From NCBI RefSeq assembly GCF_036345015.1, contig NZ_CP084098.1, positions 1,811,326-1,875,325 on the forward strand: 64,000 nt of DNA, in the 5' to 3' direction. The DNA is from Cyanobacterium sp. Dongsha4. Lineage in GTDB: Bacteria > Cyanobacteriota > Cyanobacteriia > Cyanobacteriales > Cyanobacteriaceae. The position numbers were made by a program, and so were the translations under genes. This document shows positions 2,332 through 55,903 of this stretch, one piece after another (position 1 is the stretch's first letter; the number at the start of each line of letters is the position of its first letter). A model generated the notes under the pieces. That model did not search any database, was not told the origin of the DNA, and saw only the letters and a list, made by a program, of their open reading frames with translations.

Positions 2332-3393
2332 ATGTTAACCCCAGAATCAATATTAGAAATATTAAAACCCGTTCAAGATCCAGAATTACAAAAAAGTTTA
2401 GTCGAACTGAATATGATTCGCAATGTTTCTGTTGAAGACGGAAATGTTAGCTTTACTTTGGTTTTAACAACTCCTGCTTGTCCTTTAAGAGAATTTATAG
2501 TTGAAGATTGCGAGAAAGCAGTAAAAAAATTAGATGGCGTAAAATCAGTAACAGTAGATGTAACGGCAGAAACACCCCAACAAAAACCTCTTCCTGACAG
2601 ACAATCTGTTAATCAAGTGAAAAATATCATTGCCATTTCTAGTGGAAAAGGAGGAGTAGGCAAAAGTAGTGTTTCCGTTAATGTTGCGGTGGCTTTAGCT
2701 CAGAGTGGTGCAAAGGTGGGCTTATTAGATGCAGATATTTACGGACCTAACGCTCCGACAATGCTAGGCTTAAATGACGTTCCCATAAATGTAGAAAAAA
2801 CCCCTCAAGGGGACATTCTTCAACCTGCTTTCAATCATGGTATCAAAATGGTATCAATGGGATTTTTAATTGATCCTGATCAACCTGTGATGTGGCGTGG
2901 ACCTATGTTAAATGGTATTATCCGTCAATTTCTCTATCAGGTAAACTGGGGTGAGTTAGATTACTTAATTGTTGATATGCCTCCGGGTACAGGAGATGCT
3001 CAATTAACCCTTGCTCAATCTGTGCCTTTAGCTGGAGCGGTTATTGTTACCACTCCTCAAAATGTTTCTTTACAAGATGCTCGTAGGGGTTTAAAAATGT
3101 TTGAGCAGTTAGGTATTAATATTTTAGGTATTGTGGAAAATATGAGTTATTTTATTCCTCCCGATATGCCAGACAAGAGCTATGATTTATTTGGTTCTGG
3201 GGGTGGAGAAAAGGCTTCTAAAGAATTAAATGTTCCTTTGTTAGGTTGTATTCCTTTAGAAATTTCTTTAAGAGAAGGAGGCGATCGCGGCATTCCCATC
3301 GTAGCCCTTCAACCCCAGAGTGCTTCTGCTCAAGCCTTGAAAAAAATCGCCCAACAGATTGCAGGGAAAGTTTCTGTTATGGCTTTGAGATAA
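2332..3393 (+). CDS. apbC: Mrp/ApbC/NBP35-family iron-sulfur carrier P-loop ATPase
   Basis: A 353-residue soluble protein that carries Fe-S clusters in other bacteria. Residues 1-80 form a MIP18/DUF59 domain with the conserved TPACPLREF segment. The ATPase domain starts around residue 98 with the deviant Walker A SSGKGGVGKSS, followed by LLDADIYGPNAPTMLG and VDMPPGTGDAQL. The usual CxxC cluster-binding pair of Mrp/ApbC (after ENMSYF) is not there; the position reads IPPDMPDKSYDLFGSGGG. I recall the same loss in other cyanobacterial homologues. It is monocistronic, divergent from the histidine kinase. The family call is firm; the cluster-transfer role is inferred. Confidence 0.93.
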   Translation: MLTPESILEILKPVQDPELQKSLVELNMIRNVSVEDGNVSFTLVLTTPACPLREFIVEDCEKAVKKLDGVKSVTVDVTAETPQQKPLPDRQSVNQVKNIIAISSGKGGVGKSSVSVNVAVALAQSGAKVGLLDADIYGPNAPTMLGLNDVPINVEKTPQGDILQPAFNHGIKMVSMGFLIDPDQPVMWRGPMLNGIIRQFLYQVNWGELDYLIVDMPPGTGDAQLTLAQSVPLAGAVIVTTPQNVSLQDARRGLKMFEQLGINILGIVENMSYFIPPDMPDKSYDLFGSGGGEKASKELNVPLLGCIPLEISLREGGDRGIPIVALQPQSASAQALKKIAQQIAGKVSVMALR

Positions 3394-3426: not shown

Positions 3427-3451
3427 AGGGAACAGGGAACAGGGAACAGTT
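3427..3451. repeat. Heptanucleotide tandem repeat (GGGAACA)n
   Basis: About three head-to-tail copies of the heptamer GGGAACA lie in the mrp-purA gap. A second heptamer array, (CTCCGAA)n, sits at about 3548-3567. They belong to the same heptamer-repeat habit seen across the window. Confidence 0.8.
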
Positions 3452-8763: not shown

Positions 8764-8801
8764 CAAAAATGTATCTCATAAAAAAAATGTATCTCATAAA
8801 G
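8764..8801. repeat. Direct repeat, 18-bp period
   Basis: The word TGTATCTCATAAA occurs twice, at 8770 and 8788, each followed by an A-rich stretch. The repeat sits in the 193-base gap upstream of the ATPase gene. Just before it, at about 8733-8757, CCCCT and AGGGG flank a small possible hairpin. It may be an operator or only a slippage product. Confidence 0.55.
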
Positions 8802-15860: not shown

Positions 15861-16343
15861 TTAAGAAGTACCTTTAAGCGATTCTGAAGGAGTAATGTTA
15901 TCGGTGTTAGTATCGGTATAATTGTCGGTATTGTTATCAGTTATTCTTGCCAATGTTCCTTCAGACAACACTATGGACAAAGTATCGGTATTGCTATCGG
16001 TATAAATTAACCGATGAACCACCTCTGATAGCTCATCGAGCTTAGATTGAATGGGTATTAGCTCATCCTTAATTAATTGCTTTACCCCTTTCTCAGTTAT
16101 CGGTATGGTATCAGCATATTTATCGGTATCATACTTTTTTATCAGTTCATTTCCATCGAGAAAAGATTGTATCCCTAGCTCTAAAAGATAAAGTAGAGTC
16201 TGTGTTATTTCTGGTTTTCCACTGATGTGATGAATCCTTGCAGAAAAACTATTAGCCGCTATTTTTGATATTTGCTCATAAACATCAATGGGCAATTTAA
16301 TATCTAAACGATGAAAGTCATTATTAACTCTTTTAGCAGTCAT
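15861..16343 (-). CDS. Ribbon-helix-helix-like DNA-binding protein with NTDx tetrapeptide repeats
   Basis: A 160-residue protein. Residues about 10-65 (HRLDIKLPIDVYEQISKIA ... ITQTLLYLLELGIQSFL) have the strand-helix-helix pattern of CopG/Arc/ParG-type dimeric DNA binders. Residues about 85-115 form a likely coiled segment (VKQLIKDELIPIQSKLDELS). The tail is a four-residue periodic Thr-Asp-rich stretch (NTDN, YTDT, NTDN). That tail is the translation of a 12-bp DNA repeat that also lies in the promoter. The likely role is binding its own repeats, as an autorepressor or partition/segregation factor. No ParA partner is adjacent. Function is inferred. Confidence 0.7.
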   Translation of the reverse strand: MTAKRVNNDFHRLDIKLPIDVYEQISKIAANSFSARIHHISGKPEITQTLLYLLELGIQSFLDGNELIKKYDTDKYADTIPITEKGVKQLIKDELIPIQSKLDELSEVVHRLIYTDSNTDTLSIVLSEGTLARITDNNTDNYTDTNTDNITPSESLKGTS

Positions 16344-16494
16344 ATCGGTATATTAATCGGTATTTTTATCGGTTAGCTACTCCTATATTATCAGTAAATA
16401 GAGTTATGTTGGTACAGCAATCGGTTTAAAATTATTGTTTATCGATATAAGACACATTAATTATTGGTATAACTATCGGTATTGTTGTCGGCAT
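15899..16494. repeat. 12-bp-phased TATCGGTA repeat array spanning gene and promoter
   Basis: The core TCGGT starts at 15901, 15913, 15925, 15985, 15997, 16100, 16123, 16345, 16357, 16369, 16421 and 16476, with one-mismatch versions at 15937, 16111, 16391, 16409, 16464 and 16488. Within clusters the spacing is exactly 12 bases (15901/13/25/37; 15985/97; 16345/57/69; 16409/21; 16464/76/88), and 15937 to 15985 is 48, a multiple of 12. The consensus is roughly TATCGGTATTNT. The 16345-16373 cluster starts over the first codons and continues into the upstream region of the RHH-like gene; other clusters lie inside its 3' half and further upstream. It looks like an iteron or centromere-like operator. 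Confidence 0.85.
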
Positions 16495-16658
16495 AAATAA
16501 GCAATAATAAAAATATAGGTTTTAACTATTGTTATTGAATTACTCAAACTGAAGAAAGAGGGAATAGACTATTGCTGATTTACCTTTTCCTGAAGATGAA
16601 AAGTTAACAGCTTCTCAACATTTTAATTATCCTATTGCTATCTCATCCTGAAGGGGAT

Positions 16659-24109: not shown

Positions 24110-24348
24110 TTGAACTATATCAAAGAGTTTCCCTTAATCAAAACTTCCCCGAATATAACTTGAGAAAAGGAGATATAGCCACCTTTATTGATACCGTGCC
24201 TCATCCTGAAGGCGGAGAAGAAGGCTATGTTTTAGAAATATTTAACGCCCTTGGAGAATCAATTAATGAAGTGATAGTGCCGAAAAGTGCCGTTAATCCC
24301 CTAGAAGAAAACCAAATTCTCACCGTGCGCTCTTTAATTGAAGTTTAA
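24106..24348 (+). CDS. DUF4926 protein
   Basis: An 80-residue, beta-rich acidic protein (KGDIATFIDTVPHPEGGEEGYVLEIFNALGES) typical of DUF4926. It is coupled to the DUF6883-like gene by an ATGA overlap. An antitoxin-like or immunity-like role for one member of the pair is a guess from context. Confidence 0.8.
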   Translation: MIELYQRVSLNQNFPEYNLRKGDIATFIDTVPHPEGGEEGYVLEIFNALGESINEVIVPKSAVNPLEENQILTVRSLIEV

Positions 24349-29760: not shown

Positions 29761-30268
29761 AGATTACGATTTTACCTTCACTTCTATTCTATGGTAACGA
29801 TTGATTTACATTCTTTTAGTATTTTTAAGCTAATCTCCAGATTTGGGAATGGTATCAAAGAGAAACGAGTTAGGAGTTAGGAGTTAGGGGATTAGAAGAA
29901 ACTATCGTCATCAAGAAGCTGAAGTTACTAATTACTAATGGTTTATTACCTTTGCCCTTTTAACTTTGCCTTTTGCCCTCCCCCTCTCGAGGCAAGATAA
30001 AGGGGGGTTTCTTTTAAGGGGAGACACAGAGGGGTTTACCCCTTAATTACCTGAGTTCGATATAGAATTTTCGGTTTTGGAAAGGTGTCAGGTATCAGGT
30101 GTTAGGTATCGGGTTAAAGAATTGATAAAAAACACATCTTTATTGATTTTATTATTTTCAATCTTTAGATTAATTAAACAACTTGATTAGAAAATTAAAC
30201 CTAAAACCTGCAACCAGCAACCTGAAACCTAACCATAGCAACAACTTTTAAATCGAACTGAGGTTTAA
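29761..30268. other. 508-base intergenic region made mostly of short repeats
   Basis: It contains (GAGTTAG)n at 29867-29890, AGGTGTC-type heptamers at 30082-30115, their inverse (ACCTGCA, ACCTGAA) at about 30204-30230, and a 29-base element at 30016-30044 with an inverted copy at 59619. No gene is seen. Confidence 0.75.
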
Positions 30269-55869: not shown

Positions 55870-55903
55870 TAACTCCTAACTCCTAACTCCTAACTCCTAA
55901 CTC
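55870..55903. repeat. Heptamer repeat (TAACTCC)4-5
   Basis: Four exact copies of TAACTCC followed by TAACTC sit between cobH and guaA. It is the longest perfect heptamer array in the window. Confidence 0.85.

Follow-up and report, generated by a model that had tools for sequence, protein, structure and literature searches.

In this study we describe a family of small, largely plasmid-borne cyanobacterial genes of DNA-binding type in which a short repeat, found upstream of the gene and in part of the family also within its codons, is a feature of the DNA and co-varies with the gene. The TDNx, LSDx and LTDx peptides in the tails of the encoded proteins are mostly a by-product of the codons that spell the repeat. 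On balance, we favour the reading that these are replicon-specific origin-marking or copy-control proteins, which would also repress their own genes, and that the gene from which the analysis started is a chromosomal copy. An earlier note on this DNA had proposed selection on the DNA and a protein tail arising as a by-product; the first proposal is supported, chiefly by family-level evidence, and the second is largely borne out as well.

The window, that is, the whole stretch of 64,000 nucleotides of Cyanobacterium sp. Dongsha4 that was analysed (NZ_CP084098.1, positions 1,811,326 to 1,875,325), contains an RHH-like gene of 160 aa with an ATG start codon, located on the minus strand at 16343..15861. 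According to the ORF, the alignment and the profile, its N-terminal ~68 residues are conserved in the family and are followed by a repetitive tail. The N-terminal DNA-binding-type domain (16134..16343, minus strand), delimited by alignment and a low-confidence model, comprises the strand HRLDIKLP and two predicted helices. The predicted secondary structure was E11-15, H19-33 and H44-62, in a model with a pLDDT of 34 built from a three-row alignment. The Pfam search of the protein listed no family at E<=10, with filters that drop most weak matches, and the PHROG search gave no match, while the best PDB profile match was TraM (E 0.026). Membership of the window protein in the RHH class is thus unproven.

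Within 15861-16510, the sequence TACCGATA (TATCGGTA on the plus strand) was present 14 times when one mismatch was allowed, always in the same orientation; in 2000 dinucleotide shuffles of this stretch the average was 0.88 copies and the highest count 6. Seven copies are placed at or before the start codon (16343 to 16481) and seven within the coding sequence, all on the minus strand. The upstream set consists of three copies with exact 12-bp spacing (16343..16374), of which the last (16343-16350) has the A of the start codon as its final base, one copy with one mismatch (16389..16396), the copy TATCGATA, also with one mismatch (16440..16447), and two copies 12 bp apart (16462..16481), next to a third, weaker unit reaching 16494. 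Inside the gene there are two copies forming the one adjacent pair 23 bp apart (16098..16128), two copies 12 bp apart (15983..16002) and three with exact 12-bp spacing (15899..15930), the last two groups in the Thr-Asp frame. A spacing of exactly 12 bp was found for six pairs, compared with 0.001 such pairs on average, and never more than 1, in the shuffles. The array of 12-bp units claimed in the earlier note is real, but its spacing is exact within clusters only: a single 12-bp register that spans both coding and non-coding DNA accommodates eight of the 14 units, three of them at the start codon and five towards the 3' end, and the other six fall outside it. The translation of the unit as Thr-Asp-x-Asn had to be qualified in a similar way, since Thr-Asp is encoded by six of the seven intragenic copies, including 16121-16128, but at 16098-16105 a different frame is used, giving Ile-Pro-Ile; this out-of-frame copy is also present in a second species of the genus (G001). 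A genome-wide search for the two-unit pattern, with a single mismatch allowed, gave eight places, seven of them at the window locus, and no second array elsewhere. Other repeats of the window were 7-bp tandem arrays at 55870-55903 (TAACTCC), 29867-29888 (GAGTTAG) and 3427-3449 (AGGGAAC), and an 18-bp unit, AAAAATGTATCTCATAAA, perfectly duplicated at 8765-8800.

With a protein profile of the N-terminal domain only, family members were found at 37 places in 31 of 388 genomes of the host order. In a sample across the phylum they were present in 9 of 386 genomes, all nine from the same order. Seven records matched in PLSDB, a collection of plasmids only, and all were cyanobacterial. Of two scans of genome contigs, the first gave nothing and the second two Microcystis loci. 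No relative was found among the 15 stretches matched in viral contigs, and tblastn against phages gave no match to the window protein. Contigs shorter than 20 kb, many of them draft contigs, account for no fewer than 18 of the 37 places. The idea of a chromosomal system was not supported: members are often carried by plasmids or small contigs, and with the k-mer detector there was no signal for four members from other genera whose setting is chromosomal, as judged by neighbouring genes (L160, L163, L164) or contig size (L168). In L163 the family domain shares its reading frame with a sequence that is, by eye, formylglycine-enzyme-like.

The repeat differs from member to member: TACCGATA in L001 and L002, TATCTGATA in L003, L008 and L067, TATCGGATA/TACCGGATA in L069, L072 and L076, TTAACTGATA in L009 and L010, and a TAACCGTATA-like unit in L012. 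The last upstream unit often touches the start codon, as in the window and several homologues. Two members, L065 and L040, have an array upstream and a gene free of copies, which may mean that the repeat resided upstream first and was extended into the coding sequence later. The reverse case is L006, with many copies in the coding sequence; the situation named in the earlier note as contrary to its proposal, the same tail with no repeat outside the gene, is approached by this member but not reached, as about one copy is kept upstream.

The co-variation of repeat and gene was evaluated in 25 members, after eight of 33 rows had been dropped (fragments, one fused frame and near duplicates). Upstream 8-mers were shared with the member's own tail in 4.96% of cases and with other tails in 2.35% (permutation p=5e-5). 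The N-terminal control showed a weaker excess (2.03% own vs 1.17% cross, p=0.0006), which means that part of the own-versus-cross effect is due to composition or to repeats extending into the N-terminal part. In total, upstream regions and tails shared 441 8-mers, compared with a mean of 314 and a maximum of 386 in 500 synonymous-codon permutations, and a mean of 167 and a maximum of 227 after dinucleotide shuffling. When the motif was derived from the 200 upstream bases alone, it was enriched in the coding sequence (p<=0.05) of 11 of the 25 members vs 8 of 226 control ORFs, with 200 shuffles and the whole coding sequence for members and 100 shuffles and at most 900 bases for controls; one of the eight positive controls (L166:5112-5861) is a family member missed by the exclusion. 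At p<=0.01 the counts were 7 of 25 and 3 of 226. The other 14 members failed the test, among them the Stanieria-type group (L004, L050, L057, L058 and L059) and, in chromosomal surroundings, L071 and L075. The co-variation put forward as a check in the earlier note was found in part of the family. In a separate run on 20 loci, some of which had been selected by eye or with the detector, the test was passed by 16 (p<=0.015) and failed by L041, L038, L039 and L040. The G001 orthologue of the window gene failed the upstream-motif test (p=0.46) because a different upstream 8-mer gets picked; its z with the k-mer detector was 10. Applied to 57 plasmid-type loci with 627 ORFs, this detector scored 15 ORFs above z=5, of which nine are genes of the present type and one is a parB; the other five include two tandem-paralogue cases. 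One ORF, L150:13461-13826, which starts with MPLAKPSESSPS and is unrelated to the family, shared upstream and coding k-mers with z=40.6 and is probably a repeat region.

Spacings were counted with hand-chosen motifs, and the counts stand without a shuffled null. Among 138 upstream neighbour spacings of up to 70 bp at 20 loci, 57 were of 10-12, 14 of 15-17, 21 of 20-22 and five of 25-27 bp, a preference for one or two helical turns. The 150 intragenic spacings had peaks at 12 (45) and 21 bp (16), which keep the frame and come close to one and two turns of the helix. The units of L131 recur every 10-11 bp and switch frame.

A Rep-type gene is convergent with the family gene, or with an analogous gene, in 11 of the 17 loci having both, by an eye count in which some pairs span the ends of circular records and some have genes between them. 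The convergent loci are L012 (CyRepA1), L013, L014 (DUF5906, with a P4-type match below the cut-off), L016, L153, L159 (DnaG-type), L161 (DUF927/DUF3854), L078, L037, L038 and L136. The Rep gene is in another arrangement in L040, L042, L131, L158, L165 and L168. L013 was treated as circular by its annotation, and L037 and L038 from Rep frames reaching the contig ends. The count excludes weak fragments in L079/L155, which are one contig, and a 1169-aa ORF of L043 whose Rep nature is not established; in the remaining loci no Rep was recognised with six queries. The Rep-type gene of L014 (12991-16767) also matched the intein N-terminal splicing model TIGR01445 (E 3.5e-5, 24.7 bits, cut-off 24.5). 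These neighbouring primase-helicases would be without an origin binder of their own.

Within the order, 219 of 291 genomes had a CyRepA1 match above the cut-off, and on pAL20118b it shares the replicon with a family member. The contig of the window had no CyRepA1 match above the cut-off. Among 20 CyRepA1 regions (L110-L129), hand-picked among the top matches listed and mostly small contigs, no family member was found; therefore the family protein is not a requirement for CyRepA1 as such. Twenty further Rep contigs (L130-L149) had no family member either, and two of them, L131 and L136, have an analogous gene. CyRepA1 as a fixed partner was rejected on the basis of these regions.

Some plasmid-type loci carry two genes of this design with different repeats. 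In Microcystis NIES-2549 p1 a family member has TATCTGATA in five copies upstream and one in the coding sequence, an unrelated gene, P0002, has TTAGATGAT in four copies upstream and seven in the coding sequence, and there was zero cross-occurrence between the two. The same two-gene pattern, again free of cross-occurrence, was found in L079, with 4 upstream/0 coding and 7 upstream/4 coding copies, and in L078, with 6/0 and 2/9 and one stray copy in each direction. The genome of the window has four small contigs, taken as plasmids, each with one DNA-binding-type gene. C5 (L037) has the motif TATAGACA and its protein matches BrnA_antitoxin above the cut-off. C4 (L038) has GTTAGCAA, with repeats that are clear, like those of C5, and C3 (L039) has GTTAGTAA, the weakest of the four. 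C2 (L040) carries a family member with repeats only upstream and, by profile match, a second member at 24114-24320. The genes of C4, C3 and C2 fail the upstream-motif test. In a matrix of motifs against genes, the chromosome, C4 and C5 each had their own motif both upstream and in the coding sequence, and the motifs of C3 and C4 were similar and cross-matching. A linker of the type APSE..LP....GDK.PEQ is common, by eye, to the proteins of C4, C5 and pAL20118b; the window protein ends in a similar short stretch (TPSESLKGTS), which suggests that its C-terminal part was lost. In pSTA7437.03 the parB gene (L014:5428-6369) contains a 24-bp palindrome, GTTACCAATAACGTTATTGGTAAC, inside its coding sequence, and the core and arms of this palindrome are also found upstream of parB, as a parS-like site within its own gene.

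We propose that the repeat is the predicted binding site of the family protein, and that one dimer would occupy each unit of roughly 11-12 bp, loading cooperatively. Many members have the array just upstream of the gene and, in about half of the members tested, it continues into the coding sequence behind the putative DNA-binding domain. Loading across the start codon would repress the gene itself. On plasmids, the loaded array would mark the replicon for the nearby primase-helicase Rep, or limit its use, and in this way the protein could serve in origin recognition and in the control of copy number and incompatibility. Since the array is upstream of the gene and often inside it as well, the protein and its probable site are inherited together. 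More tentatively, there may be a general design of cyanobacterial plasmids in which DNA-binding proteins of several unrelated N-terminal types, with a matching array upstream and within their codons, are joined to shared linker and C-terminal parts, so that the protein and its origin or centromere would travel as a unit whose swapping gives new compatibility groups, the window copy having been captured. A correspondence between a recognition residue and the motif centre (RCD strands with TATC-T/A-GATA, by eye) was also considered, and no claim is made from it, as the rows concerned are confined to one part of the tree.

The main rival reading, to which we give a minor but appreciable probability, is a partition module, in which the array would be the centromere and the protein its binding protein, with ParA encoded elsewhere or with none, as in StbA-like or pSK1-Par-like systems. 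The centromere-binding proteins ParR, Omega, ParG and TubR have arrays of short repeats before their genes, with a spacing near one helical turn, and in ParR- and TubR-type centromeres the units are of about 10-12 bp, so the arrays of ~10-12-bp units described here resemble the latter. At least three of the four small contigs in the genome of the window have such a gene with its own upstream motif, which is also in line with partition, as are the ParA genes near L047 and L157 and a ParA-like fragment, seen by eye, ~4 kb from the L152 member. However, ParR, Omega, ParG and TubR are encoded together with a motor ATPase or GTPase, and the window gene has no adjacent motor NTPase; we also know of no sites inside the genes of these four proteins. 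By eye, no ParA, ParM or TubZ was found beside the other members read, the ParA of L047 has its own small gene after it, and the parAB pair of pSTA7437.03 is located elsewhere on the plasmid. The earlier note had suggested looking for a distant ParA partner. Near the locus no partition-type ParA was found: the AAA_31 match of the window (2332-3393, 13 kb from the gene) is an Mrp/NUBPL protein, one of 13 AAA_31 places in G000 judged by position alone.

It is less probable still, and in our opinion unlikely, that these proteins are plain autorepressors or antitoxin-type regulators with a long operator and no role in replication or segregation. The units that touch the start codon would fit such an operator, and so would the confinement of the array to its own locus in the genome of the window. 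In the same sense, the analogous C5 protein matches, besides BrnA_antitoxin, RHH_1 below the cut-off and an antitoxin PHROG, and the divergent neighbour of the L043 member is, by eye, a HigB-like and antitoxin pair. Nevertheless, the window gene has no toxin gene adjacent to it, and an operator would not account for the 20 copies that L158 has within its coding sequence, counted with up to two of nine bases mismatched.

With regard to the copy in the window, the gene is flanked by a PMT-type transferase and a beta-propeller protein, and it occupies the same place in G001, with synteny on both sides. The block upstream of the gene (16344..16553) is alike in 194 of 210 bases in G001, and similarity is lost beyond ~16555. 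As other spacers of the syntenic block are 90-98% alike between the two species, this conservation is no sign of special constraint. Omega was 0.55 for the window gene (0.39 in the domain and 0.62 in the tail) vs 0.01-0.15 in seven neighbours, and was not clearly below 1 (p=0.07). The array is kept in both species, with 12 and 13 copies by a narrower counting rule; 6 of 103 repeat bases differ between them vs 43 of 389 other bases, a trend only (p=0.14). Neither a Rep nor a partition ATPase is adjacent to the gene and its constraint is relaxed, and therefore it is probably a stranded plasmid module, either still self-regulating or slowly decaying. That the locus has instead been domesticated, with a present function such as a decoy or incompatibility element hindering plasmids with the same repeat, appears very improbable. 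The open frame, the array and both flanks have been retained in two species, as would be expected of a domesticated locus, but the omega value speaks against it, the genome has no second array, and a DNA search of PLSDB yielded nothing beyond 28 matching bases in one unrelated plasmid.

For the window alone, the DNA-level signal is modest, and the answer on coding or DNA is suggestive. The exact 8-mer occurs five times in the coding sequence vs 1.03 in back-translations with the codon usage of the window (p=0.0018), while copies with one mismatch showed no excess over back-translation (7 vs 5.45, p=0.24). The window gene gave a z of 4.0, 3.6 and <3.3 in three runs of the k-mer detector, values that vary because the shuffles differed, and in the second run (3.6) it was the top of 51 window ORFs. 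The least credible of the alternatives, a repeat selected at the peptide level as a Thr/Ser-Asp low-complexity tail grown by slippage, with a secondary DNA likeness, could appeal to the sharing retained under synonymous permutation (314 of 441 in the family) and to the sharing between upstream region and tail in the window, which is not significantly above that permutation (22 vs 18.8, p=0.265), but it was rejected for the family by the same permutation test and by copies in several frames and orientations that give different peptides (IPI vs TDN in the window, LNRI vs NTDN in L012, frame switches in L131), and the same motif is held by non-coding upstream DNA.

Our favoured reading, origin marking or copy control, finds partial parallels in known systems. 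In phage lambda, O is an initiator with repeated binding sites in the middle of its own gene, and in a lambdoid O two extra iterons add 13 residues predicted to make no DNA contact (PMC7466680). The statement that no system of this kind had been described was consequently too strong, as intragenic iterons are present in the O gene of lambdoid phages (PMC7466680). The window gene is like lambda O in having repeated sites, in this case seven putative binding sites, inside the coding sequence; it differs in encoding another protein, with no O-like match in Pfam, PHROG or phage tblastn. For lambda O, iterons inside the gene are described in the available text, but the exchange of protein together with a matched repeat is not (PMC7466680). 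Phage lambda O may thus be regarded as a precedent for intragenic iterons. The PrpA antitoxin of pMBL6842 reduces the copy number of its plasmid by binding to iterons in the origin; it is, like the family proteins, a small plasmid-encoded regulator, but it belongs to a toxin-antitoxin pair and its sites are in the origin, upstream of repB, and not in its own gene (PMC7848731). In pRN1, the copy-control protein ORF56 is encoded with the replication protein ORF904, an association of small regulator and primase-type Rep that is also found in L040 and L042; unlike the family, this plasmid is crenarchaeal, its two genes form one transcript in which the smaller gene precedes the larger, and no intragenic repeat array is described in the text available (PMC4234260). 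PrpA, ORF56/ORF904 and lambda O would each be a precedent for single steps of the mechanism proposed.

Among cyanobacterial replicons, those of CyRepA1 and CyRepA2 are the closest in context, as several family members are found beside a Rep of such or a related type. In the available text of the papers on them, the word 'iteron' appears 0 times (PMC10079941, PMC10899382, PMC9978351), as do 'ribbon-helix-helix' in PMC10899382 and 'CopG' in PMC9978351. The origin of pSYSA is described as involving an antisense RNA together with an mRNA, the likely primer of replication. In the open-access literature covered, consisting of titles and the beginnings of abstracts, the design was not described. It looks like a new form of the intragenic-iteron systems, and one more general than the finding in the window.

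Cyanobacteria harbour several plasmids per cell and, to our knowledge, little is known about how each recognises its own origin and about their compatibility. If the proposal is true, a recognition array within the codons of its own protein would equip each plasmid with a portable marker of identity. In addition, the design, if true, would make origins or centromeres predictable from sequence and may help in the construction of compatible vectors. The family also illustrates clearly how a signal at the level of DNA can shape a coding sequence, the reading frame being tolerated rather than selected.
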